Below, piece by piece: positions 16,479 to 62,014 of a stretch of DNA of 64,000 nucleotides. Both the position numbers and the translations under genes were made by a program. Origin of the DNA: Acidimicrobiaceae bacterium (lineage in GTDB: Bacteria; Actinomycetota; Acidimicrobiia; Acidimicrobiales; Aldehydirespiratoraceae); NCBI GenBank assembly GCA_009837445.1, contig VXTM01000044.1, positions 1 to 64,000 of the forward strand, given 5' to 3'. Below the pieces are notes generated by a model, which was given only the letters and a program-made list of their open reading frames with translations, was not told where the DNA came from and made no database searches. Each line of letters starts with the position of its first letter. Within the stretch, counting starts at the first letter, position 1.

Positions 16479-16497
16479 ATCATATATTATGTCAGGT
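16479..16497. promoter_or_regulatory. Shared 19-bp element, site 1 (degenerate)
   Basis: ATCATATAT-T-ATGTCAGGT, 31 nt upstream of the LeuA-like start. It matches 12 of 18 informative positions of the working consensus ATCRTGCAWNWTGCAYGAT; the left half is identical to the strong sites at 40173, 46793 and 61996. The minus-strand reading supplies a TATGAT-like -10 for the six-gene operon at 16448-9080. Confidence 0.45.
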
Positions 16498-16539
16498 CTG
16501 CCATCCAACGCGGCCGCCAGAGGTCGCTCGGCGCCTCGC

Positions 16540-17589
16540 CTAAAGGTTGAACAGCCGGGCCGCGTTGGAGCCCTTGATTGCGACCCGCTCGGGCTCGGTG
16601 AGGCCCTCGACGCGGTCGATCAGCCCGACCGGGTCGGCCTCGCCCATGTCGAACGGGAAGTCGGTCCCCATCATGACCCGGTCCGAGCCCACCACCTCGA
16701 TCAGGTGCCGCACGTACTGGGGCTGGAACACCATGGTGTCGTAGTAGAGGCGCTTGAAGTAATGGCTGGGCGGCCGGTCCGGGATACGGGTCCGGGTCTC
16801 GGGGCGAACCTCCCAGGTGTGGTCGGCACGGGCCGCGTAGAACGGCACGTACCCGCCGCCGTGCAACAGCACCAGCTTCAGGTCGGGCAGCTCCTCGAAC
16901 AGCCCCGAGAAGACCATCCGGTGCACCGCGACGGTTGTCTCCAGCGGATTGCCGATGCAGTTGACGAAGAAGTACTCGTCGAGGCGGTGACTCTCCTCAT
17001 AGCCGTTGGGATGCAGGATGACCGGCACGCCCTTGGCCGCGGCCGCCTGCCAGAAGGGCCGGAAGCGAGGCTCGTCGAGGTTGTGGCCGTCGACGGTGCC
17101 ACCGATCTGCAGCCCTTTGAAGCCGAGCTCGTCGACAGCCCGGTCCATCTCCGCGATGGCCGCGTCCACGTCCTGCAGCGGAACGGTGGCGCCCACTGCC
17201 GCGAACCGGCCGCCGAAGTCCGCCACCGCCTGCGCCAGGGTGTCGTTCTGCACCCTGGCCGACTCGACGGCGACCGCCGTCGGCAGCCAGTAGCCGTACT
17301 GGGACACGAACGTGGCCAGGCCCTGGACATCGACGCCCATGGCGTCCATCGGTTCGATCCGGGCCTCCGGGTCGTGCAGCTGTGCCGAGATCGACGGGAT
17401 CATCGTCGCGTTGTGGTCCCGGGAGCTCTGGTTCATGAAATAGAGGTAGGGCTCGTAGGCCGGCTGGCGGTGAGCGGCCAGCAGCGGCTCGCATTCCGCC
17501 ACGGCCAAGTGACAGTGAATGTCGATGATGCGGGCCTGCTCCGCGCCCGAGACACCGTCCGCGGGCGCGGCAGAGCCATTGGGTGCCAT
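16540..17589 (-). CDS. Amidohydrolase family protein (ACMSD/decarboxylase type, PF04909)
   Basis: 349 residues from the ATG at 17589 (GAGGAGG site). Metal-site features are IDIHCH near the N-terminus, ILHPNGY, LLHGGGYVPFYAARADH and GTDFPFDMG near the C-terminus. It is closely related to the genes at 34609 and 40257, which share HGGGY and GTD[FY]P[FY]DMG. Members are Zn-dependent hydrolases or non-oxidative decarboxylases of aromatic and unsaturated acids. It follows the GntR gene by 19 nt on the same strand, so the pair is probably one transcript. The substrate is unknown. Confidence 0.88.
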   Translation of the reverse strand: MAPNGSAAPADGVSGAEQARIIDIHCHLAVAECEPLLAAHRQPAYEPYLYFMNQSSRDHNATMIPSISAQLHDPEARIEPMDAMGVDVQGLATFVSQYGYWLPTAVAVESARVQNDTLAQAVADFGGRFAAVGATVPLQDVDAAIAEMDRAVDELGFKGLQIGGTVDGHNLDEPRFRPFWQAAAAKGVPVILHPNGYEESHRLDEYFFVNCIGNPLETTVAVHRMVFSGLFEELPDLKLVLLHGGGYVPFYAARADHTWEVRPETRTRIPDRPPSHYFKRLYYDTMVFQPQYVRHLIEVVGSDRVMMGTDFPFDMGEADPVGLIDRVEGLTEPERVAIKGSNAARLFNL

Positions 17590-17608
17590 CGGCGTTGCCT
17601 CCTCGCTC

Positions 17609-18283
17609 TCAGGAACGCAGGTCGACCTCGAGGACCGACCGCGGGATCTCCAGATGTTCCCTGACCGCCGTGGCGGCGACCTCAGCATCGTGGCGAGAGA
17701 GAGCCTCGAATATGCGCTGATGGTCGCGGGTGGCCTGCTCACGGGCACGCGGCCTGACCTTCAACGCCATGCTGACGTACATCACCGAGGTGTCCAGCAG
17801 GGTGCGGAGGATTGCCAGCAGCCGGGGTGACCCGGCCGCCTCGTAGATGGTCATGTGGAAGTCGCGGTTGAGCATCACCCAGTCGGCTGTGGGGTGCGCC
17901 GCCTGCATCTGCTCCAGCACGGCGCCGACCCGAGCGAGTTGCTCGGGGGTTATCCGCTCCGCGGCCTTCTCCACCGCCACCACCTCGAGCACCAGGCGCA
18001 ACTCGTAGATCTCCTGGAGCTCCTCCTTGCTGATGCGGTGCACGGTGCCGCCCCGATGGGCGTCGAGCTCGACGATGCCCTCCGCAGCGAGGTCTCGCAG
18101 GGCCTCGCGAACCGGGGTGGTGCTGACACTGAGCTGTTCAGCGAGATCGGCCTGCACCAGCCTCGTCCCACCGGGAATGCTCCCATCGAGGATGCCTTCC
18201 CTGAGGGTCTCGCGCACAAACTCGTGCGCAGTCACCCGGGCGCGGGTGTTCTTATGCGAGACGCTGATGCCTGCGTCGGTCAC
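17609..18283 (-). CDS. GntR family transcriptional regulator, FCD (FadR) subfamily
   Basis: 224 residues from GTG 18283 (AAGGAG site). A winged helix-turn-helix at about residues 15-80 (ADLAEQLSVSTTPVREALRD, GIVELDAHRGGTVHRI) is followed by an all-helical FCD ligand domain. Its candidate metal ligands are Asp141, His143 (NRDFH), His188 (RDHQR) and His210 (REHLE). FCD regulators typically sense small organic acids. This is the only DNA-binding regulator I see among the catabolic genes, so it is the prime candidate to bind the repeated 19-bp element. Its own upstream gap (18284-18357) has no clear copy, only a weak CGATAGTATCAG. Confidence 0.92.
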   Translation of the reverse strand: MTDAGISVSHKNTRARVTAHEFVRETLREGILDGSIPGGTRLVQADLAEQLSVSTTPVREALRDLAAEGIVELDAHRGGTVHRISKEELQEIYELRLVLEVVAVEKAAERITPEQLARVGAVLEQMQAAHPTADWVMLNRDFHMTIYEAAGSPRLLAILRTLLDTSVMYVSMALKVRPRAREQATRDHQRIFEALSRHDAEVAATAVREHLEIPRSVLEVDLRS

Positions 18284-18357
18284 GTCCGCTCCTTCTTCAA
18301 TTGCGCAGGAGGTTGGTCGATAGTATCAGCGGCGATGAAGCCGACGGGGAGACCGAC

Positions 18358-19362
18358 ATGAAGTGCGTGCAGGTAACCGCGCCCGGGCAGCTGACCCACA
18401 CCGACGCGGCCGATCCCACGGCGCCCGACCCCACCCACGCCATAGTCAAGATCGACACCGTCGGGATCTGCGGTACCGACGTGAAGATCCTCGGCGGGGC
18501 CATCGGTGTCTCCTACCCGCGGATCATGGGCCATGAGATGGTCGGCGTCGTGGAGGTGGCCGCCGAAACGGGCCCACCTTCGGGCCGAAGGGTGCTCATC
18601 GACCCGGCCATCGTTTGCGGAACCTGCGCCATGTGCCGCAAGGGCCGCGGCAACATCTGCCTCAAGGGCGGTCTGTTGGGCCGAGACGCCGACGGCGTGT
18701 TCGCCGAATACGCGGCTGCACCGAGCCACCGGCTGCTGGAGGTCCCCGACTCGGTCAGCGGTGCCGCGGCGGGACTGCTGCAGGTGCTGGGAACGTGCGT
18801 GCACGCCCAGCGCGGCGCGCGGGTGGCTGTCGGCGACGTCGCGGTGGTGCTGGGCCTCGGCGTCAGCGGCCTGCTGTTCACCCAGTTGCTGTCCGCCGCC
18901 GGGGCCAAGGTTGTGGGCGTGACCCGCTCGGAGTGGAAGCGCGACCTCGCCCGCCGGCTGGGCGCGGCCGCGGTGGCCGCACCCGGCGACGCCGACTCGC
19001 TGGTCCGGGAGATGACCGGGGGTCGGGGAGCGGACCTTGTGGTCGAGGCCGTCGGGACCGAGGCGACCCTGGCCCAGGCCATCGAGCTGGCCGGCACCGG
19101 CGGCGAGGTGATCGTGTTCGGCACCCTCACCGGTGGAGGCCGGGGCCTGCCCTACTACCAGCTCTACTTCAAGGAGCTCATCCTGCGGAACCCTCGGGCT
19201 GCCACCGTTGACGACTACGCCCGCGGGATCGAGCTGGCCGCATCCGGGGTGCTCGACCTCGAGGCCATCGTCACCGACCATTTCGGTCTCTCGGAGGCGC
19301 CGGGGGCCTTCGAGCGAGTCAAGAGCTCCGACTCGCTGAAGGTGCTGATGTCGGTGGCCTGA
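18358..19362 (+). CDS. Zinc-dependent alcohol dehydrogenase (MDR family)
   Basis: 334 residues from the ATG at 18358 (GGGGAG site); upstream in-frame sequence is not used. Catalytic zinc motifs GICGTDVK and GHEMVGVV are present, as are the four structural-zinc cysteines in CGTCAMCRKGRGNIC. The NAD(P) domain has VLGLGVSGLLFTQLL. It resembles threonine/sorbitol/L-idonate-type dehydrogenases. It is transcribed divergently from the GntR gene across a 74-nt gap, an arrangement that often indicates control by that regulator. Confidence 0.9.
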   Translation: MKCVQVTAPGQLTHTDAADPTAPDPTHAIVKIDTVGICGTDVKILGGAIGVSYPRIMGHEMVGVVEVAAETGPPSGRRVLIDPAIVCGTCAMCRKGRGNICLKGGLLGRDADGVFAEYAAAPSHRLLEVPDSVSGAAAGLLQVLGTCVHAQRGARVAVGDVAVVLGLGVSGLLFTQLLSAAGAKVVGVTRSEWKRDLARRLGAAAVAAPGDADSLVREMTGGRGADLVVEAVGTEATLAQAIELAGTGGEVIVFGTLTGGGRGLPYYQLYFKELILRNPRAATVDDYARGIELAASGVLDLEAIVTDHFGLSEAPGAFERVKSSDSLKVLMSVA

Positions 19363-19375
19363 GCCCGCTCGGCCT

Positions 19376-20116
19376 CTAGCTGGCGAGAAGATCGAGCTCT
19401 TCGAACTTGCGCAGAACATGGGCCTTCGCCACCGCCACCTCGTCGTCGGCGGGATCGCGAGGGAAGGGCAGGTCGATCTGGATGTCGTCCTCCAGGCGCC
19501 CGCCCTTGGCGAACACCAGGATCCGGTTCGACAGCTCGACCGCCTCGCCGACATCGTGGGTGACGAACACCACCATCTTCTTGGTCTCGTCCCACATGTG
19601 GTGCAGCTCCCGCCGCAACGCCCGGGCGGTGATGGCGTCGAGGTGGCTGAAGGGCTCGTCCATGAACAGCACGTCGGGCTCGATGGAGAACGCCCGGGCG
19701 ATGCCCACCCGCTGCTGCATGCCGCCGGACAGCTCGCCGGGGAACTTGGTCCCCTTGTCGCCCAACTGAACCATCTCGAGATACCGCTGGCAGCGCTTCC
19801 TGGTGTCCTCGGACCGGTCTTCCTGCACGAACATCAGGTTGTCGGTCACGGTGCGCCAGGGCAGCAGCCGGGCGGCCTGGAACACGTAGCCGGGCGCGGC
19901 GACGTGTCCGTCGCTGGTGATCGCCACCGTTCCGCTGGTAGGCGTCTCGATCCCGGTGAGGATGTTGAGAAGCGTCGACTTCCCGCAGCCGGAGGGCCCG
20001 ACGATGGACACGAAACTGTGCCCGGTGATGTCAAGGTTCACGTCCTCCAGCGCGACCACCTTGTCCTCGCCGACGCCGAACTCCTTGTGTAGGTTCTTGA
20101 TTCTGATCTCAGCCAC
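19376..20116 (-). CDS. ABC transporter ATP-binding protein (NitT/TauT/SsuB type)
   Basis: 246 residues. Walker A GPSGCGKST (40-48), signature ELSGGMQQRVGIARA, Walker B VLFMDEP and switch FVTHDVGEA are all intact. It is the last gene of the importer operon (binding protein 23614, permeases 22010 and 21114, this ATPase). It energises uptake of an anionic or sulfonate-like nutrient if the family analogy holds. GTG start with a weak ribosome site. Confidence 0.92.
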   Translation of the reverse strand: MAEIRIKNLHKEFGVGEDKVVALEDVNLDITGHSFVSIVGPSGCGKSTLLNILTGIETPTSGTVAITSDGHVAAPGYVFQAARLLPWRTVTDNLMFVQEDRSEDTRKRCQRYLEMVQLGDKGTKFPGELSGGMQQRVGIARAFSIEPDVLFMDEPFSHLDAITARALRRELHHMWDETKKMVVFVTHDVGEAVELSNRILVFAKGGRLEDDIQIDLPFPRDPADDEVAVAKAHVLRKFEELDLLAS

Positions 20117-20166
20117 TTGATCGTCCGTTCACTCGTTGTCTCCGACAGTTCCTGCCCTCAACGGGC

Positions 20167-21114
20167 CTATCCGTGCCTAGCGGTCTCTTCCTCGCCGTAG
20201 TGCTCGTGGTGCTCGCCGAAGGCCTCCTCGACCACCTCGGTCTGGAGCTGCGGCCGCCAGCGGAAGGCCCGGCGGCTGATGGGCTCGAAGACGAGCCGCT
20301 CGAAGAGGATGGCGAAGATCACGAAGAATGCGGCGTAGCCGACCACACCGTGGGCCCGGTGGGCGTCGTACCAGAACTTGATGGTCCAGCCGGCGCCGTC
20401 CTGGCCGCCGAACACCTCGGCGATGACCAGGCCCTTCCAGCCGATGGAGAAGCAGTACCGGGCCGCCGCGAACATGAACGGCATCAGCGACGGCACCAGC
20501 ACATGGCGGATCACCTTCGACTGCGGAACCTGGAACGAGCGGGCCATGTCGAATAGCTCGCGCGGCGTGTTGCGCACCCCTTCCCGCACGTTGACGATCA
20601 CGAAGGGGATGCCGGCCAGGATCACCGTCAGGATCGGGCCCCGGTCGTCGAAGCCGAAGATGATGCTGTTGAACAGCGCCCAGGCCAGGGCGGGCATGGC
20701 CAGAATGGCCATGGTCCAGTCGTGGCAGAAGGCGTTGGTGGCCCGCGAGAGGCCCATGGCAAGCCCCAAGGCGGTGCCCAGGACCATGGCTATGGCGAAG
20801 CCTGACAGCAGCCGGCGCAAGGAGATGAAGAAGGTCTCGTAGAGGTTCTTGCGGGCGAGAGTGTCGGTGATGAACTCGTCCCACATGAACCCGCCGACCT
20901 CGCTGGGCGTGGGCAGCACGTCGACCGCGAAGGGCCAGACCTCCTCCACCGCTATCAGTGAGAGCTCCCAAACCGCGAACAGCGCAATGGGGAACAGCAC
21001 TCGGGCCAAGTGCGGCGACTTGGCGATCTTCGCGGGGAGCGAGATAAGGCGCTGCCCGGGGTTGGGCGCCGGCTGCGAGCCGGCGGTGCCCGGACGGGTC
21101 TCGGTGACGGTCAT
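20167..21114 (-). CDS. ABC transporter permease (NitT/TauT type)
   Basis: 315 residues, about six membrane spans (for example VLFPIALFAVWELSLIA and VVGYAAFFVIFAILFERLV). The coupling-helix region NVREGVRNTPRELFDMARSF is typical of TauC/SsuC. It has long charged termini, the C-terminus being Glu/His-rich. The ATG at 21114 has GAGGG upstream. It is the second of two different permeases in the operon, suggesting a heterodimeric channel. Confidence 0.9.
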   Translation of the reverse strand: MTVTETRPGTAGSQPAPNPGQRLISLPAKIAKSPHLARVLFPIALFAVWELSLIAVEEVWPFAVDVLPTPSEVGGFMWDEFITDTLARKNLYETFFISLRRLLSGFAIAMVLGTALGLAMGLSRATNAFCHDWTMAILAMPALAWALFNSIIFGFDDRGPILTVILAGIPFVIVNVREGVRNTPRELFDMARSFQVPQSKVIRHVLVPSLMPFMFAAARYCFSIGWKGLVIAEVFGGQDGAGWTIKFWYDAHRAHGVVGYAAFFVIFAILFERLVFEPISRRAFRWRPQLQTEVVEEAFGEHHEHYGEEETARHG

Positions 21115-21131
21115 GATCGTGAACCCTCCCC

Positions 21132-22010
21132 TCAGGTCGCGGTAACGGCCTGGCGCCAGCGGAAGTAGCGCCTCTCGATGGCTTCCAGAACGACCTTCTC
21201 GAGGAACAGGGCGAAGAAGAAGAAGGCCAGGATCCAGGTCAGGAACTCACTCATGTCGAACAGTACGGCGCTGATCCGCATCTCGAAGCCGATCCCTTCC
21301 GACGACGAGAAGACCTCGGTGAGCACGGTCACCTTCCAGGCGATCGAGAATCCGAATCGCAGACCGGTGAACAGGTAGGGCGCCAGATGCGGGATCACGA
21401 TCTGGCGGTTGCGCTTGAAGACGCTCACCTGGAACGACTTGGCCATGTCGAGGAGGTCCTTGGGCAGCGCCTTGATTCCCTCGGAGACGTTGACGGTGAC
21501 CAGGGCGAAGGTGGTCAGGATGATGGCGATGGCCGGGCCGAGGGGCCGGTTGCCGAAGATGATCGCGGTGATCAGCACCCAGATCAGCCCCGGCGCCGAC
21601 AGGCTGATCAGCACTGCGTCCTTGAAGAACCCCTCGAACCACTTGGACTGCATCAGGATCCCGATCATCGCTCCGATCAGGAACGACAGGCCGAAGCCGA
21701 CCGCGATGCGGGTCAGGGTGGCCTGGAAGGCCGCCGGCATCGTGCCCTCTCCCCAGATCTCGAAGAAGGTGGCCACCACCTCGGAGGGTCCGGGGAGCAG
21801 CTTGGGATCCAGGGGGCTGCCCCGAAGGAAGCTGAAGATGTCGAGGAGGGCGAACTCCCAGATGGCCAGCACCGCGATGTAGCTGAGGATCCGCCAGAAC
21901 CAGCGCGAGGTCAGCTCGGCGCGGCGCGCCTTGCGAGCGAGCTCCTCCTCGGTGACGCGATCAGCCGGCGGCGTTTCGATGGGTGGTGCTGTCGGTTCTG
22001 TGGTCGTCAC
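21132..22010 (-). CDS. ABC transporter permease (NitT/TauT type)
   Basis: 292 residues with about six membrane spans and the same coupling segment (NVSEGIKALPKDLLDMAKSFQ), paralogous to the gene at 20167. GTG start at 22010 with AAGGTGA upstream. The gene lies 203 nt after the binding-protein stop; that gap holds two strong hairpins. It is paired with 20167 and the ATPase at 19376. Confidence 0.9.
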   Translation of the reverse strand: MTTTEPTAPPIETPPADRVTEEELARKARRAELTSRWFWRILSYIAVLAIWEFALLDIFSFLRGSPLDPKLLPGPSEVVATFFEIWGEGTMPAAFQATLTRIAVGFGLSFLIGAMIGILMQSKWFEGFFKDAVLISLSAPGLIWVLITAIIFGNRPLGPAIAIILTTFALVTVNVSEGIKALPKDLLDMAKSFQVSVFKRNRQIVIPHLAPYLFTGLRFGFSIAWKVTVLTEVFSSSEGIGFEMRISAVLFDMSEFLTWILAFFFFALFLEKVVLEAIERRYFRWRQAVTAT

Positions 22011-22101
22011 AGTGGTTCACCTTAGAAAGACTGGTGCGCACAGCCAGGGCATCGGTTGCCGTACGCAAGCTTCCCCTACTCGCATGTCAGTCCCTGCGGC
22101 G

Positions 22102-22141
22102 GGCCGGCGGCCCCTGCAGCACAACGCAGGGGCCGCCGGCC
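22102..22141 (-). terminator. Perfect GC hairpin between binding protein and permease (distal)
   Basis: A 16-bp uninterrupted stem (GGCCGGCGGCCCCTGC pairing with its complement) with an 8-nt loop AGCACAAC. No T-run follows on the minus strand. It lies about 90 nt before the permease start. It is likely a partial terminator or a 3'-end stabiliser of the binding-protein mRNA. Confidence 0.65.
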
Positions 22142-22156
22142 ACGGCAAGGATCGAA

Positions 22157-22198
22157 TGGCGGGCTGACCGTTTGGAGGGGACGCCGGTCAGCCCGCCA
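22157..22198 (-). terminator. Perfect GC hairpin between binding protein and permease (proximal)
   Basis: A 14-bp perfect stem (TGGCGGGCTGACCG pairing with CGGTCAGCCCGCCA) and a 14-nt loop, 16 nt after the stop of the substrate-binding protein. In tandem with the hairpin at 22102-22141 it would let the binding protein be made in excess over the membrane parts. Confidence 0.65.
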
Positions 22199-22213
22199 CT
22201 CTCGCCGCAACAA

Positions 22214-23614
22214 CTAGGGGCCGACTACCTCATATCGAGGAGCCGGATAGCCCACCGGCAGCCCGTTCGGGTTGTCGGGGTGCAACTCGGTCATGAAGTC
22301 GTAGATGGCGACCTCATTGTCGATCCACTCCTGGTCGAGATAGACGCTCTCGACGAACCAGTCGTTGGCTCCCTGCATGAACTGGACGGTGAACTCGACG
22401 TCGGCCTCGTCCTCGACCGCGAAGTGCTGTGGGTACGCCCGCACGATGTCGGCGGTGTTCTCCTCCCACTCCGCGATGCCGATCTGCCACAGCTCCAGGA
22501 ATGCGGCGACCTCACGCGGGTGAGAGTCGTACCATTCCTCGGTGGCGGTGAACAGGTTGGACATCACATGGTTCTTGCCGTCATTGAGACCCGAGAACTC
22601 GTTGTAGAGCTGGAACGGCATCCGTCCGCCGTACATGATCTCGATCTCGCCGGCGCGCAGGTGCGGCACGGCCGCCTCGGGAATGACCACCGCAGCCTCG
22701 CAGTCGCCGCGCAGCAGGTTGGTCGGGTTCACGAAGTGGTCGTTGACGATCAGGTTGTAGTCGCCTCCACCAACGCGGTAGTCGATGCCGTGGAGCTGGT
22801 CGGCCAGCACGGTCCAGAAGCCGGTGTTCGACACGGGGCTGCTCACGCAGATGTTCGAGCCGAGCGGGATGTCGGCAAGGGTCTCGTACGGATCGCCGGC
22901 GCGACGCATCATCGGCGAGCGCTGGAAGTTGTACTTGCCGAAGGTGACCGTCGTAATGGACGTCTCGTTCTCGAGCACCGGGATCTCCTGGGTGCCCATC
23001 GACACGATGTCGCCGTGGCCCCCTGCGAAGTAGGTGAACTCGTCCCAGGTGGAGCTGGTGTGGATGCGGATGTTGTTCTCCTCCTCCCACTGGGCCAGCA
23101 GACCGGTGTCGGTCAGCCAGTCCCAGACGGGGTCCGGAGCGAACGCGAACCGGATGATCGAGGCCGCCTCGGGCTCCATCATCGCCGCTTCCTGGGCGGC
23201 CATCGCCTCGTCCTGAGCGGCCTCAGCGTCGGCCTGAGCCGCCATCGCGTCGGCCTGGGCGGCCTCGGCGGCAGCCTGAGCGGCCTCAGCAGCAGCCAGC
23301 GCCGCATCGAGCTCGGCCTGTGCCGCGGCAGCCGCGGCAGCATCGGCCTCGCCAGCCGCAGCCGCGTCTGCCTGGGCCTGCTCGAACGCAGCGAGCGCCT
23401 CAGCAGCCTGGGCTGCTGCCGCGTCGGCGGCCTCCTGGGCCGCATGAGCCTCAGCGTGGGCCGATTCGGCCTCGGACTGGGCCGCAGCGGCCTCAGCCTC
23501 GATCGCACTGGTGTCGACCACGGCCGCCGGCTCGTCATCGCCGCAGGCCGCAGCCAGCAGGCTGAGAGCGGCGATCGCCGTGACCACCTTTACCAGTCGG
23601 TTCCGTCTTGACAT
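22214..23614 (-). CDS. ABC transporter substrate-binding lipoprotein with long Ala-rich helical stalk
   Basis: 466 residues from the ATG at 23614 (GGGGAGGA site). A lipoprotein signal (basic MSRRNRLVK, hydrophobic core, lipobox LAAAC with Cys24) is followed by about 110 residues (39-147) almost entirely of Ala, Glu, Gln and Asp in AQA/AEA repeats, predicted to form a continuous helix or coiled coil. The NitT/TauT-type periplasmic-binding fold begins near 152 (IIRFAFAPDPVWDWL). This stalk is not part of normal members, which run about 310-350 residues. First gene of the importer operon; a strong copy of the shared element lies 100 nt upstream. Confidence 0.88.
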   Translation of the reverse strand: MSRRNRLVKVVTAIAALSLLAAACGDDEPAAVVDTSAIEAEAAAAQSEAESAHAEAHAAQEAADAAAAQAAEALAAFEQAQADAAAAGEADAAAAAAAQAELDAALAAAEAAQAAAEAAQADAMAAQADAEAAQDEAMAAQEAAMMEPEAASIIRFAFAPDPVWDWLTDTGLLAQWEEENNIRIHTSSTWDEFTYFAGGHGDIVSMGTQEIPVLENETSITTVTFGKYNFQRSPMMRRAGDPYETLADIPLGSNICVSSPVSNTGFWTVLADQLHGIDYRVGGGDYNLIVNDHFVNPTNLLRGDCEAAVVIPEAAVPHLRAGEIEIMYGGRMPFQLYNEFSGLNDGKNHVMSNLFTATEEWYDSHPREVAAFLELWQIGIAEWEENTADIVRAYPQHFAVEDEADVEFTVQFMQGANDWFVESVYLDQEWIDNEVAIYDFMTELHPDNPNGLPVGYPAPRYEVVGP

Positions 23615-23713: not shown

Positions 23714-23732
23714 ATCATGCACTATACATTAG
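23714..23732. promoter_or_regulatory. Shared 19-bp element, site 2 (strong left half)
   Basis: ATCATGCAC-T-ATACATTAG; 14 of 18 consensus positions, with the plus-strand left half matching 8 of 9. It lies in the 191-nt gap between the importer operon (minus, 23614) and the ATPase/MFS pair (plus, 23806). The flanking AT-rich ATAATATC provides -10-like sequence. Confidence 0.55.
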
Positions 23733-24587: not shown

Positions 24588-25796
24588 ATGACCGGGGCCG
24601 GCGACCGGCGCTCGGCGATCGCCGGCCTCGCCGTGTCGACCACGTCCATCGCGCTCGGGGCCCTGCCGGTCTTCCTGCTGGGCGCATTGGCCGTGTTCAT
24701 CCGCGATGAGCTCTCATTCAGCGAGACCCGGCTCGGACTGGCTGCGTCGGCCTACTACCTGGCCTCCGCGCTCTCGTCGGTCCCCGGAGGCCGCTTCTGC
24801 GAGGCCGTCGGCGGCCGCCGGGCGGTGGCCTCCTCGGCCGTGCTGGGTGGAGCGTCGATGCTGGCGATCGCGCTGCTCGCCCGCGACTATGGCACGCTGC
24901 TGGGGTTGATGGTGGCGGCCGGCATCGCCAACGGCGCCGCCCTGCCGGCGTCCAACCTTGTGATGACCCAGCGGATCCCGGTTCGGCTGCAGGGTGCCGC
25001 CTTCGGGGTGAAGCAATCGTCGGGACCGATCAGCACCCTGCTGGCCGGGGCCTCCGTTCCCCTGCTGGGCCTGACCGTGGGCTGGCGGTGGGCGTTCCTA
25101 CTGGCGGCGGTGGCCACCGTCCCCCTGATCCTGTGGGGTCGCCAGGGCCCGCGCCGCCGCCGCGGCAGCGCGGCCCGTCCCACCGAGGGCGTGCCGGTGG
25201 GACCGCTGGTGGTGCTGGCCGCGGCCGCAGCCACCGCGGTGGTGGGCGGGGCGTCGGTGGCTGCCTTCTACGTGGAGTCGGCCGTCGCGGCCGGAGTGGG
25301 GCCCGGGCCAGCGGGGACCATCCTCGCGGTCAGCAGCGTGACCGGCATCGGCTGCCGGGTCCTGTGGGGCGCGATGGGCGACCGGTCGCCCCGCCTCCAC
25401 GTCCCGCTGCTGGCCGGACTCATGGCGGTGGGCGCTGCCTGCTTCGTGCTCATGGGACAAGTGTCGACGCCCGTGTCGCTGCTGGCAGTGACCGTCCTGG
25501 CCTTCGGGAGCGGCTGGGGCTGGCCGGCGCTGTTCAACTACGCCATCGTGAGCCGCACCCCGTCGGCTCCCGGCCTGGCGACCGGCATCGCCGGGACCGG
25601 GCTCTACGCGGGCGGGATTGTAGGGCCACTGCTGTTCGGCGCGATCGTGGAGGCGCTGGGCTACTCCGCCGCCTGGCTCTGCGTGGCCGCCAGCGCGGCG
25701 TGCTCGTCGCTGCTGATGTACGTGGGCGGCCGCTGGCTGGAGCGGGCCAGCCACGTCCACCCGCTACTCCCAGGGCGGGAGGCCGAACGACGCTGA
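24588..25796 (+). CDS. Major facilitator superfamily transporter
   Basis: 402 residues, about 12 membrane helices, with the loop 2-3 region GGRFCEAVGGRRAVASS matching the MFS pattern. ATG 24588 has GGAG close by; GTG 24561, overlapping the ATPase stop as GTGA, is an alternative. It is cotranscribed with the ATPase at 23806. Its last 33 nt overlap the 3' end of the oppositely oriented MaoC gene. Likely uptake or export of an organic acid; the substrate is unknown. Confidence 0.87.
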   Translation: MTGAGDRRSAIAGLAVSTTSIALGALPVFLLGALAVFIRDELSFSETRLGLAASAYYLASALSSVPGGRFCEAVGGRRAVASSAVLGGASMLAIALLARDYGTLLGLMVAAGIANGAALPASNLVMTQRIPVRLQGAAFGVKQSSGPISTLLAGASVPLLGLTVGWRWAFLLAAVATVPLILWGRQGPRRRRGSAARPTEGVPVGPLVVLAAAAATAVVGGASVAAFYVESAVAAGVGPGPAGTILAVSSVTGIGCRVLWGAMGDRSPRLHVPLLAGLMAVGAACFVLMGQVSTPVSLLAVTVLAFGSGWGWPALFNYAIVSRTPSAPGLATGIAGTGLYAGGIVGPLLFGAIVEALGYSAAWLCVAASAACSSLLMYVGGRWLERASHVHPLLPGREAERR

Positions 25797-26210
25797 GCCG
25801 CGGGTGGTGACGGTGCCGTCGAGCTTGCGAACCCAGAGATCGGCGTCGAAGGACCCCGCCTCCACGTCTACGGCGGTGACCATCCCACCGCACTCCAGGC
25901 CGTCACCGGCGTAGGCCGGAGCGAAGTGGCGGTAGCTGATCGACCGCGGCCACGCCCCCACGCCGAGCCAGGCCTGCACCGCCAGCATCATCCAGGCACC
26001 CTGCAGCGGGCCGTGAACCAGCAGGCCGGGGTGGCCGTCCTGGTCGGTGGTGAAAGGGGCGTCGTAGTGGACCCGATGCAGGAGCCAGGCCGCGGCGCTG
26101 AACATGAACAGGTCGATCTCGTCGGGCCGGCACGTCAGGAGCGGGATGTCGTCGCCGGCAGCCGGGATGGCCGGATCCCGCGGTGCGGTCCCGCCCTCGA
26201 CGGCGCTCAC
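25764..26210 (-). CDS. MaoC-like hydratase, C-terminal type (hot-dog fold)
   Basis: 148 residues. HYDAPFTTDQDGHPGLLVHGPL matches the hydratase-2 motif: the Asp after HYD and the HG loop are the expected catalytic area. GTG 26210 overlaps the stop of the partner subunit (26207) by 4 nt. Together with 26207 and the acyl-CoA dehydrogenase it forms a tight three-gene set for acyl-CoA oxidation and hydration. It resembles the mesaconyl-CoA/3-hydroxyacyl-ACP dehydratase half-proteins that work as heterodimers. Confidence 0.82.
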   Translation of the reverse strand: MSAVEGGTAPRDPAIPAAGDDIPLLTCRPDEIDLFMFSAAAWLLHRVHYDAPFTTDQDGHPGLLVHGPLQGAWMMLAVQAWLGVGAWPRSISYRHFAPAYAGDGLECGGMVTAVDVEAGSFDADLWVRKLDGTVTTRGSASFGLPPWE

Positions 26211-26701
26211 CGGTAGATCCTCGTGAAGCGCTCCCGCATGACCAGCTCCGAGTGCTGGTTCCAGAACGTGAACTGGGTCTTGACGAAGGCCATCGGACCG
26301 GAGCGCCCGATCTTCTCATAGATGTCGACGATCTCCTTGTGCAGGGTGATCGTGTCGCCCGCGACGACCGGCACGCCCATCTCGATCTCGGTCTCACCGG
26401 CCATGGCCCTCTTGACGTCCAGCGGCGGCACGTCCTCGATGGCCGAGCCGTCGACCTCGAGCCGGTCGCGGTCGGCGAGATGAGCGGCGTGCATGCGTAT
26501 GACGTACGGGAAGTAGGGCGGTGCCAGCAGGTCCCGGTAGCCAGCGGCCCGGGCGGCTCCGGCGTCGGTGTGGACGGGGTCGGTGGCCCCGATTGCTTGC
26601 GCGAAGCGCAGGATGTCGTTGCGGCCCACCTCGAAGGTGGCCGGCTCGAAGGGCTCGGCCGCCCAGCGCCGTGCCTGTTCGGTGATGAGGGTGTGCTCCA
26701 T
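26207..26701 (-). CDS. MaoC/FAS1-like dehydratase, N-terminal type
   Basis: 164 residues with the FAS1-like dehydratase region (EVGRNDILRFAQAIGATDPVHTD and APPYFPYVIR). It lies directly after the acyl-CoA dehydrogenase (start 26701, preceding stop at 26702-26704) and overlaps the next gene by 4 nt. It presumably pairs with the 148-residue MaoC protein as a two-subunit enoyl-CoA hydratase. Confidence 0.82.
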   Translation of the reverse strand: MEHTLITEQARRWAAEPFEPATFEVGRNDILRFAQAIGATDPVHTDAGAARAAGYRDLLAPPYFPYVIRMHAAHLADRDRLEVDGSAIEDVPPLDVKRAMAGETEIEMGVPVVAGDTITLHKEIVDIYEKIGRSGPMAFVKTQFTFWNQHSELVMRERFTRIYR

Positions 26702-27844
26702 TCAGATCCCCATCGTCTTGGCGATGATGTTGCGCTGGATGTCGGAAGTGCCGGCGCCGATCACCCCCAGCCGGGACTCGCGGTAGTGGCGCTGGAGGTC
26801 GTGCTCCATGGTGTAGCCGTAGCCGCCGAGCACCTGGAGCCCCTCGTCGGCCACCTTCTTGTAGGCCTCGCACACGTACAGCTTCAAGATGGCGGCGTCC
26901 CTGGTGGTGGCCATGCCGCGGTCGAGGCGGTCGGCGTAGCGGTAGACCAGCATCTCCGATATCTCGGTGAGCATCTGCATCTCGGCCAGCCGGTGGCTCA
27001 CTGCTTGGAACCGTGATATGGGCCGGCCGAACTGCTGGCGCTGCTGGGCGTAGGCGAGAGCGTCTGCGAGGGCCGCCTTGGAGGCCCCGGTACGGGCGGC
27101 CGACAAGCACAGCCGCTCGTATCGCAGGTACACCGCGTTGTCCCGCCAACCGTCGTGGAGGGTGCCCAGCATGCGGCCCCGCGGGACGCGCACGTCGTCG
27201 AAGAACACATGGGCCGTCCCCAGCGGCCAGTGGCCGAGGGTCTCCATCGGCGTCCAGGTGATGCCCGGCGAGGAGGTGTCGACCAGGAAGTTGTTGATGC
27301 CGTGGTGCTTGGGTCCCTCCGACGAGGTGCGAGCGGCCACGAGGTCGTAGTCGCTCACCTTGAATCCCGACGTGAACACTTTCTGACCGTTCAGCACGAA
27401 GTGGTCGCCATCGGGCACCGCCGACAACGAGATGGAGGCCGCATCGGAGCCTGCCTCCGGCTCGGTCAGCGAGTAGCACACCGACCGGGTGCCGTCGGCA
27501 ATCCGGGGCAGCACCTCCCGCTTGAGCTCCTCGGAGCCGTCACGCCCGACGGCCAGCCCGCCCCAGGTGACCGCCCTGAACACCCAGAGGGCCAGGTCCA
27601 GGAACGCCCGGCCGACCTCCTCCAGCAGGACGGCCACCTCGACCGCTCCGCCACCGGCTCCGCCGTACTCGATGGGGATGTTGATGCCCAGCCAGCCCAG
27701 TTGCCCCAGCTTCTCGTAGAGGTCCTGCGGTGCCCGCCGCTCGCGGTCGCACTCCCTTACGTAGTCCCGGGAGATCTCGCGCTCGCAGAAGTCGCGCACC
27801 GCGTCCCGGAACATCTCCTGCTCGGACGTGAGGTCTACCTGCAT
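26702..27844 (-). CDS. Acyl-CoA dehydrogenase (isovaleryl-CoA dehydrogenase-like active site)
   Basis: A 380-residue FAD enzyme. CYSLTEPEAGSDAASI and the C-terminal GAGTSDIQRNIIAK are standard. The medium-chain catalytic Glu position (YEGT) is Ala (IGAGT), whereas YERLCLSAA places Glu243 where isovaleryl-CoA dehydrogenase keeps its base. A short or branched acyl-CoA is therefore likely. GGAGG precedes the ATG. It is divergent from the cyclase gene at 27982 across a 137-nt GC-rich gap that has no copy of the shared 19-bp element. Confidence 0.92.
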   Translation of the reverse strand: MQVDLTSEQEMFRDAVRDFCEREISRDYVRECDRERRAPQDLYEKLGQLGWLGINIPIEYGGAGGGAVEVAVLLEEVGRAFLDLALWVFRAVTWGGLAVGRDGSEELKREVLPRIADGTRSVCYSLTEPEAGSDAASISLSAVPDGDHFVLNGQKVFTSGFKVSDYDLVAARTSSEGPKHHGINNFLVDTSSPGITWTPMETLGHWPLGTAHVFFDDVRVPRGRMLGTLHDGWRDNAVYLRYERLCLSAARTGASKAALADALAYAQQRQQFGRPISRFQAVSHRLAEMQMLTEISEMLVYRYADRLDRGMATTRDAAILKLYVCEAYKKVADEGLQVLGGYGYTMEHDLQRHYRESRLGVIGAGTSDIQRNIIAKTMGI

Positions 27845-27981
27845 GGCCCGGCCTCCAGTCTGGCGGGTCTAGAGCGCTGGCAGCTCGCCGGGCTGGTCCG
27901 GTTTGGCCGGCGTGCCCGCCGTCCGTAGGGTGCCCGGCCGGTACGCCCCCGCCCGCAGGCCCCGAGAAAGGACCCTCCGGA

Positions 27982-28947: not shown

Positions 28948-29022
28948 CGAGAGTCGGGCTCGCCACCCGGACCGTCCATCGGACCGTCCATCAGACCCGC
29001 TATCGGACCCATTTCTGACATA

Positions 29023-29045
29023 GTCGATCATATAAGATCGACGCC
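29023..29045. promoter_or_regulatory. Shared element, site 3 (degenerate) within a GTCGATC inverted repeat
   Basis: A perfect inverted repeat GTCGATC-ATATAA-GATCGAC lies at 29023-29042. Its ATCATATAA-G-ATCGACGCC core (29027-29045) matches 12 of 18 consensus positions. A second AT patch, TATAAC (29050-29055), sits 8 nt before the ATG at 29064 and looks like the -10 box. Confidence 0.45.
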
Positions 29046-33417: not shown

Positions 33418-33436
33418 ATCCTATATTTTGCACGAT
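33418..33436. promoter_or_regulatory. Shared 19-bp element, site 4
   Basis: ATCCTATAT-T-TTGCACGAT; 15 of 18 consensus positions, with a perfect right half. It is centred between the TauD gene (minus, start 33359) and the enolase-superfamily gene (plus, 33463). TATATT inside it can serve as the plus-strand -10. Confidence 0.65.
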
Positions 33437-34608: not shown

Positions 34609-35694
34609 TCAGACTCCGATCCCGAACAGGCGGGCTGCGTTGGCTCCCAGGATCCGGGTGCGGGACTGCTCGGTGAGCCGGGCCTCGGCCAGGAAGGCCA
34701 TGGGGTCGGTGGGACCCATGTCGAAGGGATAGTCGGTCCCGAGCAGGACCTGGGTGTCGCCGAAGGTCTCCACCAGGTACTCGACCATTCCCGGCTCGAA
34801 CACCGTGGTGTCGAAGTGCAGCTTGCGCAGGTACTCGCTGGGCTTGCGGTCGATGTGGCGGCGCAGTTCGGGGCGCACGCCGTAGGCGTGGTCGGTGCGG
34901 GCGAAGTAGTAGGGCAGGTAGCCGCCGCCGTGGACCACCACCATCTGGAGTTCGGGGTGGCGCTGCCACACCCCGCCCAGGATCATGCGGGACACCGCCA
35001 GCGTGGACGCCAGCGGCATGCACACCACGTTGACCAGGTAGTAGTCGTCCATCCGCTGGCCGTGGGTGAACCCCTGGGGATGCATGATCACGGTCATGCC
35101 CAGTTCGACGGCACTCTCCCACACCGGGTCGTAGCGGCGGTCGTCCAGGTCTCCGCCGTTCACGTCGGCGTTGATCTCGAAGCCGCCCATGCCGAAGTCC
35201 CGGCGGGCCTCGACCATCACCTCGACGGCCAGCTCGGGATGGTCCATGGGCAGGTTGGCTACCGCCGCGAACCTCTCCGGGTACTGGGCCACGACCTCGG
35301 CGAGGCGCTCATGTTGGAGGCGGCAGGCCTTGACCGCATGCTCGGCGTCCAGCCAGTAGAAGTACTCGCCGGGCGTGACCGACAGGATCTGCATGTCGAT
35401 GCCCTGCTTGTCCATGTCCTCGATTCGGGCCTCGGCCTGCTCGAACCTGGCCACCATTTCGGGCTGGCTGCGCAGCTCCCGGTTGTAGCGGAGGCTCTCG
35501 GGCGGCGAGAAGAACGAACGCGGGTCCATCTCGGGCGAGAAGTGCGGCTTGGCCAGTGCCGAAGCCGCGGGTATGGACAGGTGGGAGTGCACGTCGATGC
35601 ACAGGCACGGCGGCTTGGGCGCGGCCGAACTCTCCCATCTGGGCCCCAGCTCAGGCCACCACTCGGCCGGCGCTTCGGATTCGGCTGCGGTCAT
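34609..35694 (-). CDS. Amidohydrolase family protein (ACMSD/decarboxylase type)
   Basis: 361 residues. CIDVHSHLS (HxH), MHPQGF, VVHGGGYLPYYFARTDH and GTDYPFDMG give the metal site. It is a paralogue of 16540 and 40257. AAGGAG precedes the ATG at 35694. It is the last of a three-gene minus operon (enoyl-CoA hydratase 37880, CoA-transferase 36960, this gene), hinting at decarboxylation or hydrolysis of a CoA-pathway acid. Confidence 0.88.
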   Translation of the reverse strand: MTAAESEAPAEWWPELGPRWESSAAPKPPCLCIDVHSHLSIPAASALAKPHFSPEMDPRSFFSPPESLRYNRELRSQPEMVARFEQAEARIEDMDKQGIDMQILSVTPGEYFYWLDAEHAVKACRLQHERLAEVVAQYPERFAAVANLPMDHPELAVEVMVEARRDFGMGGFEINADVNGGDLDDRRYDPVWESAVELGMTVIMHPQGFTHGQRMDDYYLVNVVCMPLASTLAVSRMILGGVWQRHPELQMVVVHGGGYLPYYFARTDHAYGVRPELRRHIDRKPSEYLRKLHFDTTVFEPGMVEYLVETFGDTQVLLGTDYPFDMGPTDPMAFLAEARLTEQSRTRILGANAARLFGIGV

Positions 35695-35757
35695 GGCGAC
35701 TCCTTGATGGTCGTGCCGGCCCGCGGCTGCGGGCGGCGCCGGTCGGGCTCTGGGAGG

Positions 35758-36960: not shown

Positions 36961-37010
36961 GGCTCAGCCGTCCTGCTCCGGGTACCGGCAGGCCCGCGCC
37001 GGCATCGCGG

Positions 37011-37880: not shown

Positions 37881-37916
37881 GGTGTTGAGACCTCCGGGTG
37901 CTCCGAGGTGGGATGG

Positions 37917-39169: not shown

Positions 39170-39196
39170 TCCCCGTCCAGGGACGCTGGCCGGCGG

Positions 39197-41270: not shown

Positions 41271-41283
41271 ACGGGGAGATGAC

Positions 41284-42426: not shown

Positions 42427-43505
42427 TGGTGAAGCAACTCAACGTCGGAGTCATCGGCACCGGATGGTGCGGGGGCATCAGGGCGGCGGCCTGCTCCCGG
42501 CACGCGCTGGTCGGCCGCCTCCATATCGCGGAGACCAACCCGGCCCGCCGCACCGAAGTGGAAGAACTAGTCGATCCAGCAACCAGCACCGACGACTGGG
42601 AGTCGCTGCTGGAGATCGACGGCCTCGACGCGGTGATGATCTCGGCCACACCGGAGACGACCCACTACCCGATGGCCCGGGCCGCTCTGGAGGCCGGCCT
42701 GCACGTGCTGCTGGAGAAGCCGATCGCGCTGGCGCTGGAGGAGGCCGACGAGCTGATCGACCTCGCCGACAGCAACGGGCTGAAGTTCACCATCGGCTAC
42801 TCGCAGCGGTTCAACCCCAAGCAGTCGTTCGCGCGGCGCAGCGTGCGCGACGGCAGCGTCGGCGACCTGCGGCATGTGCTGATCACCCGCCACGTCGGTC
42901 GCCGGCTCGGAGCCAAGATCGGCAACCGCATCAAGCTGTCGCCCGCTGCAATGGAGGCCACTCACGACATCGACTTCGCCTTCTGGTGCCTCCAGCCCCG
43001 GCGTCCGGTGCGGGTGTATTCCCAGATGGCCTGGGGAGTGCGCCGGGAGACAGTGGGGCTGCCCGACTCGCAGGTGATGATCGTGACGATGGACGACGGC
43101 GCGGTGGTGACCGTCAACGCAGGCATGGCCCTGCCCGCGGGCGGCTACCCCAACGCGGCCACCACCTGGATCGAGCTGGTCGGGACCGACGGGACGGTGA
43201 TGATCGACGACACCCACAAGGAGATCGTCCACAACACCTCGACCGACGGGGTGCAGTTCCCGCTGTCGACCATGCCCGGCGAGTACGTCGAGTCCACCTA
43301 CGCCGGGCCGATGGAGCGCGAGACCACACACTTCCTGGAGGCGGTCGCCCACGACACCGAGGTGATGGTCGACGCCCGGGACGCCCGGCTGGTGATGGAG
43401 GTCTACATGGCGGCCGACCTGTCCGCAGACCTCAACGAGGTGGTCGAGCTCCCCCTCAGCGCGGAGGCGCAGGGCCTAGCCCTGGCCGCCTCCATCAAGC
43501 AGTAG
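42426..43505 (+). CDS. Gfo/Idh/MocA family oxidoreductase
   Basis: 359 residues from the ATG at 42426 (AAAGGA site). VIGTGWCGGIRAAAC and VLLEKPIAL; the catalytic-domain segment THDIDFAFWCLQ is family-like. Coupled to 41284. An open frame extending upstream to 41850 is merely a read-through of that gene. Substrate unknown. Confidence 0.88.
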   Translation: MVKQLNVGVIGTGWCGGIRAAACSRHALVGRLHIAETNPARRTEVEELVDPATSTDDWESLLEIDGLDAVMISATPETTHYPMARAALEAGLHVLLEKPIALALEEADELIDLADSNGLKFTIGYSQRFNPKQSFARRSVRDGSVGDLRHVLITRHVGRRLGAKIGNRIKLSPAAMEATHDIDFAFWCLQPRRPVRVYSQMAWGVRRETVGLPDSQVMIVTMDDGAVVTVNAGMALPAGGYPNAATTWIELVGTDGTVMIDDTHKEIVHNTSTDGVQFPLSTMPGEYVESTYAGPMERETTHFLEAVAHDTEVMVDARDARLVMEVYMAADLSADLNEVVELPLSAEAQGLALAASIKQ

Positions 43506-43541: not shown

Positions 43542-44324
43542 CTACGGCCCCGGGGCGTCGGCCGGGCCGGGTACCGCGTGCGGCCCTAGCCGGGCGACCA
43601 CGGCCGTCTCCATCTCGTCGATCAGGGCGTCGGCGGCCGCATCGGTGGCGGCCTTGGCCGATATCCGGACTCTGGTCTGGTTGTCGGTGAGCATGTAGGC
43701 CAGCGACGGGTTTGTGGAGTCGTTCAGATCGCCGAGGAGTTCCGCCACCTGGGACTCGCCCAGGCCCACGGTCTGCAGCAGGCGGCTTCGCAGCACCGCC
43801 GGCTCGCCCACCAGGGCGCGGAGTCTGGGCATCACCTCTGCGTCGAGCATGGCGACCATCTCCGAGGGGACCCCGGGCAGGGCGAACAGGTGGACGCCTT
43901 CATGCTCCATGGCCGCGCCGAGGGCGACTCCCACCGGGTTCGGCAGAGGGTCAGAACCTTCCGGGTGGTCGGCCATCCGCAGGGCGCTTTCGGTGACCGA
44001 GCCCCTCGCCTGGTGCACCCGGTCGCGGATGCGCTGCTCCTGGGCCGCGTCGCGCGCGATGCCGACGCCCGCGAACGCGCACAGCGCGTCGCGGGTCAGG
44101 TCGTCGGGGGTGGGGCCCATGCCGCCGGTCAGCACCACCGCGTCGGCCCGGGCCGCGGCGTCGGCGATGGCACCGGTCAGGCGCTTCAGGTTGTCCCCCA
44201 CGGTCGTCTGGTAATGGGCGTCGAGCCCGGCCGCGGCCAGTCGCTGGGCGATGGTGGCCGCGTTGGAGTTCACGATCTGGCCAAGCAGCAGCTCGGTCCC
44301 CACCGAGATCACCTCGACGATCAC
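43542..44324 (-). CDS. CinA-like molybdopterin-binding-fold protein (COG1058)
   Basis: 260 residues from GTG 44324, 10 nt after the FAH stop. ISVGTELLLGQIVNSNAATIAQRL and VLTGGMGPTPDDLTRDAL are the CinA/MoCF fold signature. The C-terminal nicotinamide-nucleotide amidase domain of full-length CinA is absent. Stand-alone domains act as nucleotide pyrophosphatases or are of unknown role. Last gene of the cupin/Ldh2/FAH operon; a repair role for oxidised or deamidated cofactors is possible. Confidence 0.85.
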   Translation of the reverse strand: MIVEVISVGTELLLGQIVNSNAATIAQRLAAAGLDAHYQTTVGDNLKRLTGAIADAAARADAVVLTGGMGPTPDDLTRDALCAFAGVGIARDAAQEQRIRDRVHQARGSVTESALRMADHPEGSDPLPNPVGVALGAAMEHEGVHLFALPGVPSEMVAMLDAEVMPRLRALVGEPAVLRSRLLQTVGLGESQVAELLGDLNDSTNPSLAYMLTDNQTRVRISAKAATDAAADALIDEMETAVVARLGPHAVPGPADAPGP

Positions 44325-46792: not shown

Positions 46793-46811
46793 ATCATATA
46801 TGTTGCAGGAT
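46793..46811. promoter_or_regulatory. Shared 19-bp element, site 7
   Basis: ATCATATAT-G-TTGCAGGAT; 15 of 18 consensus positions. A further GATGATC follows immediately. It lies in the gap between the cupin operon (minus, 46733) and the enolase-superfamily operon (plus, 46888). Confidence 0.68.
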
Positions 46812-52615: not shown

Positions 52616-52634
52616 ATCCTATAACATATATTTT
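52616..52634. promoter_or_regulatory. Shared element, site 8 (weak)
   Basis: ATCCTATAA-C-ATATATTTT; only 11 of 18 consensus positions, although the first five bases equal those of the strong site at 33418, and TTCTGCGTC follows. It lies in the gap between the aldehyde dehydrogenase (minus, 52589) and the FAD monooxygenase (plus, 52688). It may simply be AT-rich promoter DNA. Confidence 0.3.
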
Positions 52635-55122: not shown

Positions 55123-55177
55123 AAATTGCATTTTGCGTTCACATTGAATCCTGCGCCGATATTGCATTTTGCACGAT
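55123..55177. promoter_or_regulatory. Shared 19-bp element, site 9 (tandem pair)
   Basis: Two copies 36 bp apart. The one at 55159-55177, ATATTGCAT-T-TTGCACGAT, matches 16 of 18 consensus positions. The one at 55123-55141, AAATTGCAT-T-TTGCGTTCA, matches 11. Both contain ATTGCATTTTGC. They sit between the CoA-transferase (minus, 55100) and the hydrolase operon (plus, 55219). A 36-bp spacing could allow cooperative binding. Confidence 0.65.
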
Positions 55178-57038: not shown

Positions 57039-57057
57039 ATCATGTATGATGCACGAT
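57039..57057 (+). promoter_or_regulatory. Shared 19-bp element, site 10 (best match)
   Basis: ATCATGTAT-G-ATGCACGAT; 17 of 18 consensus positions and nearly palindromic (7 of 9 paired positions). It lies 24 nt upstream of GTG 57081, downstream of the cyclase gene on the same strand. TATGAT (57045-57050) is the likely -10, so a bound protein would cover the promoter. Confidence 0.72.
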
Positions 57058-58331: not shown

Positions 58332-58333
58332 CG

Positions 58334-61049: not shown

Positions 61050-61072
61050 GTCCTCCAAAGCGCTTCGATCCG

Positions 61073-61951
61073 TCAGTGCGAGGCCTCGGCAAAGTGTGAG
61101 CGGCTCAAGCCGCGCTGGATCTCGTACAGGCCGAGGGCGGGCGCCACCGGCAGCGGCACCTTCACCGGGCACGGCGCCAGCCGGGCCTCCACCGAGGGCC
61201 GTCCCCGGAGGATCCGGTCGTCCCAGGCGGGCCAGTCCGACGGCTGGTGCTGGGCCATCAGAGGCCATGCGTCCACCGCGGCGTAGCCCTGAAGGAGCAG
61301 CCTGCGCTGGGACCGGCTGCGGTTCGGGCCCGAGCCGTGCAGCAGGCGGACGTGATGGATGGAGATGTCTCCGGGTTCGAGTTCCAGGCTCACCGCGGCC
61401 TGCGGGTCGAAACTGCCCGGCGCCACCGCGCCCACGAACCGGCCGTTCTCTGTGTGGCTGAGGGCCGGACCGCGGTGAGAGCCGGGAACCACCCTGAGGC
61501 AGCCGCTGGCCTCGGTGGAGGTGTCTAGGGCGATGCTGACCTCCAGCAGGTCGTCGTTGGTGTGGGGGTAGTAGCCCCAGTCGGTGTGCCACTCCACATG
61601 ACCAGACCCGCACGGCTGCTTGGCGTTGAGCTTGGTGTGGTGCCAGCGGATGTCCGGGCCGATGAGCTCCTCCACCTTGTCCAGCAGCGGCGGGTGGGCC
61701 AGCATGGCCGCGAAGGACTCGTGGTGGAAGTGGGGGCTCTTAATCCGGCGGATCCGGGCCGGGCCGCCGGCGAGAGCAGCCGCGTCGTCGAGCTCGATCG
61801 AGTCGGTGTCTTGGGCCAGCCTCGAGGCCTGCTCCGCGAAGCTGTCGGCGGCCTCCCGCAGTTGAGAGACACCTCGCTTCGGCAGCGCGTTGCGCACCAC
61901 GACGTAGCCGTCGTTGCGATAGGCCTCCACCTGGCCGGGTGTCAGGGTCAT
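61073..61951 (-). CDS. Phytanoyl-CoA dioxygenase family (PhyH) Fe(II)/2-oxoglutarate oxygenase
   Basis: 292 residues. His122-Thr-Asp124 (EWHTDWGYYPH) and His205 (LLHGSGPNRS) form the iron triad, with Arg211 for 2-oxoglutarate. LRVVPGSHRGPALSH is the standard mid-domain motif. GAGAGGTGTGA precedes the ATG. Divergent from the ThDP enzyme, with a strong shared element between; paired with the enolase-superfamily gene at 59967. Confidence 0.92.
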   Translation of the reverse strand: MTLTPGQVEAYRNDGYVVVRNALPKRGVSQLREAADSFAEQASRLAQDTDSIELDDAAALAGGPARIRRIKSPHFHHESFAAMLAHPPLLDKVEELIGPDIRWHHTKLNAKQPCGSGHVEWHTDWGYYPHTNDDLLEVSIALDTSTEASGCLRVVPGSHRGPALSHTENGRFVGAVAPGSFDPQAAVSLELEPGDISIHHVRLLHGSGPNRSRSQRRLLLQGYAAVDAWPLMAQHQPSDWPAWDDRILRGRPSVEARLAPCPVKVPLPVAPALGLYEIQRGLSRSHFAEASH

Positions 61952-61995
61952 TCACACCTCTCGGTTGCCTCTGTCGTGGCCGCCCGCCGCGGCAG

Positions 61996-62014
61996 ATCAT
62001 ATATTCTGCATGAT
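61996..62014. promoter_or_regulatory. Shared 19-bp element, site 11
   Basis: ATCATATAT-T-CTGCATGAT; 15 of 18 consensus positions. It lies between the PhyH operon (minus, 61951) and the ThDP gene (plus, 62077). TATATT (plus) and TATGAT (minus) can act as -10 boxes in the two directions. Confidence 0.68.

Follow-up and report, generated by a model that had tools for sequence, protein, structure and literature searches.

The closest described systems are GntR-family regulators with an FCD domain. Atu1419 of Agrobacterium fabrum binds the 10-mer ATGTATACAT, reads a G through the recognition-helix residue Arg45, and represses three genes from an operator overlapping the -10 region (PMC7797058). 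Operators of the FadR subfamily follow TNGTNNNACNA or TKGT-N3-ACMA (PMC2230225, PMC4494728). A survey of that subfamily counted 1740 operons for 634 regulators, a mean of 2.7, and reported that the two operons of a divergon usually share a single site (PMC4494728). GntR1/2 of Corynebacterium glutamicum, also FCD regulators, both activate and repress (PMC2230225). We analysed a 64,000-nucleotide stretch of Acidimicrobiaceae DNA (contig VXTM01000044.1, assembly GCA_009837445.1; the window below means this whole stretch), which holds a catabolic island (9080 to 63753) with a 19-bp palindrome at most of its divergent promoters. Very probably this palindrome is the operator for a GntR/FCD regulator encoded within the island (17609-18283), which is predicted to be an inducer-released repressor of 19 transcription unit heads and about 40 genes.

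Judged from its sequence, the predicted regulon is new and large; its kind is known, but its operator code departs from that of its relatives. It resembles the Atu1419 system in the combination of GntR and FCD domains, a palindromic site and catabolic targets, and in the spacing of the zinc-site residues (Asn137, His141, His192 and His214 there; N139, H143, H188 and H210 here). It differs in its 19-bp odd palindrome without GT/AC, in Thr55, and in its predicted size of about 40 genes against three (PMC7797058). An odd palindrome with inner boxes 3 nt apart is shared with the FadR-subfamily operators, whereas the boxes themselves read YA-N3-TR here and GT-N3-AC there; about 19 predicted units on one regulator are likewise unusual against the mean of 2.7 operons (PMC4494728). 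The best NCBIfam match of the protein was PhnR_burk (TIGR03338), a related FCD GntR that is nevertheless not its family (126.4 bits against a curated cut-off of 271.5). Among the papers listed by a literature search of one open library, none dealt with this regulon or operator.

The palindrome and its confinement to the island

The first-pass annotation, with a consensus built by hand, had listed twelve sites of one palindrome. The letters at all twelve coordinates bore this out for eleven, which share a 19-bp odd palindrome, ATCATRYATNATRYATGAT; the twelfth, 55123, is a weak auxiliary copy at best, and the site listed as 29027 registers better at 29020. The symmetric consensus described the sites better than an asymmetric one. 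Circularity was removed by leave-one-out (LOO) scoring, in which each site was scored by a model built from the other ten. The sites, given without strand, are listed below.

16479-16497, operator upstream of the HMGL-like gene 15225-16448 (minus strand); LOO 21.3
23714-23732, operator between substrate-binding protein/ABC genes (minus) and a second ABC ATPase/MFS (plus); LOO 20.2; kept in seven genomes
29020-29038, operator upstream of an HpcH/HpaI - Gfo/Idh - CoA-transferase III run (plus); LOO 19.6, the lowest; kept in five genomes
33418-33436, operator between TauD (minus) and MR_MLE (plus); LOO 25.4
37917-37935, operator between an enoyl-CoA hydratase run (minus) and MFS (plus); LOO 26.3
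40173-40191, operator between two amidohydrolase units; LOO 27.7
46793-46811, operator between a cupin run (minus) and an MR_MLE run (plus); LOO 26.8
52616-52634, operator between aldehyde dehydrogenase/SDR (minus) and a FAD monooxygenase-like gene (plus); LOO 24.5
55123-55141, weak partial copy, possibly an auxiliary half-site, 36 bp before 55159; score 7.2; similar repeat in the G004 and G008 alignments
55159-55177, operator between CoA-transferase III (minus) and alpha/beta hydrolase/cyclase (plus); LOO 21.9
57039-57057, operator upstream of a luciferase-like monooxygenase run (plus); LOO 27.6
61996-62014, operator between PhyH/MR_MLE (minus) and a TPP enzyme (plus); LOO 28.0

The LOO scores of all eleven sites lay between 19.6 and 28.0, and the best non-site position of the window reached 7.1-8.7. 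Under the iterated symmetric model trained on them the eleven scored 22-33, and the best position outside them was the 55123 copy, registered at 55116. The top score in 60 order-2 Markov copies of the window did not exceed 18.2. Among 200 column-permuted palindromic models, at most two positions scored above 19 (mean 0.09), compared with 12 for the real model.

The profile of 36 different sites from eight genomes reads ATC-ATRYAT-N-ATRYAT-GAT, with an uninformative centre, informative outer ATC/GAT arms and two-fold symmetry over 19 bp. Of 68 extended sites, 58 have an ATRYAT-like hexamer at one of the expected places and 48 at the other, the two places being 7 bp apart. The layout is that of the FadR subfamily (odd-centred, boxes 3 nt apart), with Y-A at positions 7-8 and T-R at positions 12-13 in place of the GT...AC boxes. 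An additional half-site displaced by 7 bp from the operator was considered and rejected: the offsets -7 and +7 scored high in 28 and 31 of the 68 sites, which reflects self-similarity of the motif, because shuffled flanks gave 36.9 and 26.8.

According to gene calls from our own codon model, gaps make up 4431 of the 64000 bp, and all eleven operators are intergenic. Within the island they occupy eight of ten divergent gaps, three of 26 tandem gaps and none of nine convergent gaps, in line with the claim that nearly every divergent promoter of the region has a copy. The two divergent gaps without one are 27845-27981, as had been noted, and 18284-18312 between gntR and an alcohol dehydrogenase (ADH) gene. 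Outside the island, where the housekeeping part had also been noted as lacking copies, none of the 14 gaps had one; all of them are tandem and hence offer no divergent comparison.

The confinement holds for the whole 3.9-Mb assembly. An asymmetric pattern like that of the first-pass annotation, at up to 3 mismatches, gave six matches, all in the window; the symmetric consensus at the same tolerance gave eight, again all in the window (reversed control, 2). A looser pattern, ATNNTRYATNATRYANNAT at up to 2 mismatches, designed with the sites already known so as to catch all eleven, matched 19 times (reversed control, 3), with 13 matches in the window (the eleven and two overlapping) and six elsewhere that scored 12.5-17.0, under every LOO score of a window site. 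The expected concentration of the element at these genes was thus found.

Conservation at equivalent promoters was found as well. In seven congeners, 59 sites could be matched to these eleven promoters (G001 5, G004 8, G006 6, G008 11, G009 11, G011 9, G014 9), some promoters lying on contigs that were not found; with the window this makes 70 sites, 36 of them different, at 11 orthologous promoters in eight genomes. Among the alignments listed, the 19-bp block is kept and much of the neighbouring non-coding DNA is variable; for instance, operator 16479 has the same 19 letters in six of seven aligned genomes, with differing flanks. Where the block 34609-43505 is inverted, in G008, its operators have moved along. 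One further contig of G001 (C96), without matches to window proteins, carries operator-like matches of up to 22.4. The motif, its island confinement, its conservation and its association with one GntR clade, described next, are established by computation.

The GntR/FCD regulator and its distant homologues

The first-pass annotation had not named a regulator; comparison between genomes points to the GntR/FCD protein that the island encodes. The features concerned are as follows.

17609-18283, minus strand, GntR/FCD regulator, putative binder of the operators (Pfam GntR 52.9 bits, FCD 101 bits)
15225-63753, no single strand, proposed regulon with 19 unit heads, drawn from gene calls and domains with co-transcription presumed

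The protein carries an N-terminal GntR winged helix (Pfam cut-off 27) and a C-terminal FCD domain (cut-off 24.3), which places it in the FCD subgroup. It is the only transcription factor that Pfam recognises among the 51 island proteins, two of which had no Pfam match; the cupin at 46335 matches an AraC ligand-binding domain and has no DNA-binding part. By sequence, the Asn/Asp and three His residues of the FCD metal site (N139, H143, H188, H210) are present in all eight orthologues. At the position of the FadR/Atu1419 Arg45, all eight orthologues have Thr55, as do 38 of 45 other clade members. This substitution for the guanine-reading Arg matches the change of the operator boxes from GT-N3-AC to YA-N3-TR.

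Distant homologues provided the independent test of this assignment, their surroundings being scanned with a model from the window sites only. A 27-kb contig of G358 (homologue 44% identical, 73% GC) held three sites scoring 26.2, 22.8 and 17.4, the next best being 6.1, and one of the three lies about 45 bp before its gntR. A metagenome-assembled genome (MAG) labelled Oculatellaceae cyanobacterium (locus L110, homologue 44% identical) had two operator-like sites upstream of gntR, 175 bp apart at 9253-9446, with scores of 29.7 and 24.2 against a maximum of 26.9 in 200 Markov copies. A Salinicoccus homologue (38%) was discarded as support, its top score of 17.8 falling below its own Markov mean of 19.0.

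Nine of 14 homologue loci from a search of the phylum beat the Markov null at an empirical p of at most 0.02, compared with one of 23 GntR paralogue loci. A second set of 29 loci from a search of the class was fetched after the model had been fixed. A site scoring at least 18 was found in 15 of these 29, in four of the 14 first-set loci and in none of the 23 paralogue loci (Fisher, 1.7e-5). Sites of at least 12 within 300 bp upstream of gntR occurred in 8/29 second-set loci versus 0/23 paralogue loci (Fisher, 0.006), and downstream in 2/29. These thresholds were scanned rather than pre-set, and the paralogue controls, mostly from congeners of the window, are interrelated. The tree places the operator-bearing homologues throughout the clade of the window protein, with one locus, L125, outside its main group. 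Several of their neighbourhoods share island families (ABC transporter, Amidohydro_2, M24, Gfo/Idh, HMGL, ADH and PPDK-like). This suggests that the island grew from an ancestral core. Inspection by eye of ten GntR loci not in the ortholog group showed no palindrome common to them.

An orthologue (75-100% identity) was found in seven of the eight congeners with at least five consensus matches and in none of eight others (best matches 35-37%); this co-occurrence speaks for the protein but is weak evidence alone and not independent, because gntR lies in the island. Several observations weigh against the assignment of the operators to this protein. The exception among those eight congeners, G004, carries operators with no gntR orthologue found, and G197 and G271, with three consensus matches each, lack a close gntR. 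Fourteen of the 29 second-set loci have no strong site (at least 18), and in either set some loci are related to others, with two pairs overlapping or adjacent, which makes the Fisher values optimistic. The missing Arg does not by itself mark the clade, because 12 of the 23 paralogues have Ala and one has Phe at the Thr55-equivalent position. Finally, the gntR/ADH gap 18284-18312 contains no operator, although one stands upstream of gntR in several distant homologues, and autoregulation in the window was rejected on this ground. A block common to six of seven orthologous gntR/ADH gaps, TCGATAGTATCA (window 18284-18360), does not fit the operator and is possibly the shared promoter core of that gap.

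Taken with these points, the evidence for attributing the operator to GntR is good but indirect, for a motif that is real, specific and conserved. Tentatively, and with somewhat less than an even chance, the protein may belong to a distinct GntR/FCD subgroup with a changed operator code, present in several actinobacterial families and the cyanobacterium-labelled MAG. In this lineage its control, once limited to a few neighbouring genes, would have come to cover the entire island, where one small molecule would act as master switch of about 40 genes of seemingly unrelated metabolism and imply one previously unrecognised degradation programme.

Proposed mode of action and competing explanations

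In the proposed mechanism, a GntR dimer would bind the two ATRYAT half-sites, which are spaced 7 bp apart and have ATC and GAT on their outer sides, and a single operator in a divergent gap would serve both directions. Without inducer, GntR would cover the promoters and repress the 19 unit heads; a small island substrate or intermediate, probably bearing a carboxylate, would occupy the metal-site FCD domain and release it. That the effector is a carboxylate is no more than a reasonable guess, made because the four metal-site residues are kept in all orthologues. About 40 genes of unrelated enzyme families would then probably be switched together by one chemical cue. We infer the binding itself, the repression, the inducer, co-transcription and the service of all units to one nutritional programme.

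The direction of control bears on the strongest alternative, that the element is an activator site or that GntR both activates and represses. FCD regulators can do both, as GntR1/2 of C. glutamicum illustrate (PMC2230225), and 15 of the 19 heads start 30-145 bp from their operator (range 4-145 bp). Repression is favoured because the other four (29064, 33463, 37940 and 57081, at 25, 26, 4 and 23 bp) begin too close for an upstream activator. If their start codons are right, these heads fit occlusion better than activation, an argument that bears on those four only. We consider activation or dual control unlikely.

A second alternative, to which we give a smaller chance, is that a different transcription factor, from elsewhere in the genome, binds the palindrome and the local GntR has a site of its own. 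The operator-less gntR promoter and the presence of sites in G004, where gntR was not detected, speak for it. Against it, G004, an 84%-complete assembly, is missing the island's left half as a whole and not just gntR (best match to 9080-23587, 69-73% over a few hundred bases), and distant homologues from other families and from the cyanobacterium-labelled MAG also have sites nearby, whereas the 23 GntR paralogues do not.

That the element is a promoter core, a lineage-specific -10 region, is very improbable. It is A/T-rich in a window of 69% GC, contains TATGAT-like and TATATT-like hexamers and sits at divergent promoters; yet it is confined to the island in the genome, has two-fold symmetry over 19 bp with information in the outer arms, and is nearly absent from congeners without the island. 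The eight congeners lacking a gntR orthologue gave 0-2 strict consensus matches (3-8 with ATNNTRYATNATRYANNAT), and the eight with at least five strict matches gave 9-24 with ATNNTRYATNATRYANNAT, which agrees with the earlier view that the half-site is something other than a general -10 box. There is a negligible chance that the element is a mobile repeat or the end of a transposon dispersed through the island, which the repetition of a near-identical sequence might evoke, as the sites share only the 19-bp core with no flanking repeat and every copy is intergenic and orthologously placed.

Content of the predicted regulon and its surroundings

For the repressor regulon preferred here, the same-strand runs behind the operators comprise 39 genes; extension of the minus-strand run below 15225 as far as 9080 would raise the count to 44. 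This agrees with the proposal that some 40 genes of unrelated enzyme families form one regulon, their joint response being presumed. Among their products are CoA-transferases III, enolase-superfamily enzymes, amidohydrolases, dehydrogenases and transporters, together with TauD, PhyH, luciferase-like and FAD-dependent oxygenases. Outside operator coverage lie gntR with the amidohydrolase at 16540, the ADH at 18313, the acyl-CoA dehydrogenase run 25764-27844 and the cyclase at 27982. NCBIfam models run on 20 proteins gave no curated-level name except for 48845, a succinate-semialdehyde dehydrogenase (TIGR01780, 647.4 against a cut-off of 646.35), and no degradation pathway is claimed because only this one protein was so named. 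A 45-kb set of orphan enzymes from an uncultured actinobacterial lineage would be tied to one regulator, and an inducer screen with this single protein could reveal what the island degrades. Thr55 in place of the usual Arg would offer a ready specificity test for the GntR family, and the operator model predicts regulons in other genomes.

The island also occurs in G414, a genome of another family of the same order, on contigs 92-94% identical in DNA to the window (L090 on C86; L137-L138 on C46). The sole rpoB of G414 is its own (79%), and most sampled relatives of its genus have no consensus match; horizontal transfer or mis-binned contigs would account for this, the contigs ending before any junction. 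The habitat of these MAGs is presumably sponges, judging from their isolate names. In the window, tRNA-Trp, tRNA-Met and tRNA-Thr (7665-9008) stand between a rpoB/rplK/nusG-like housekeeping block and the island, and this border is kept in G008 and G009. Two further proteins were observed within the island. The CinA-like protein 43542-44324, inside a catabolic run, has molybdopterin-binding and KH domains only. The ABC substrate-binding protein 22214-23587, which had no Pfam or NCBIfam match, shows a long Ala/Glu/Gln-rich stretch after a lipoprotein-like start.

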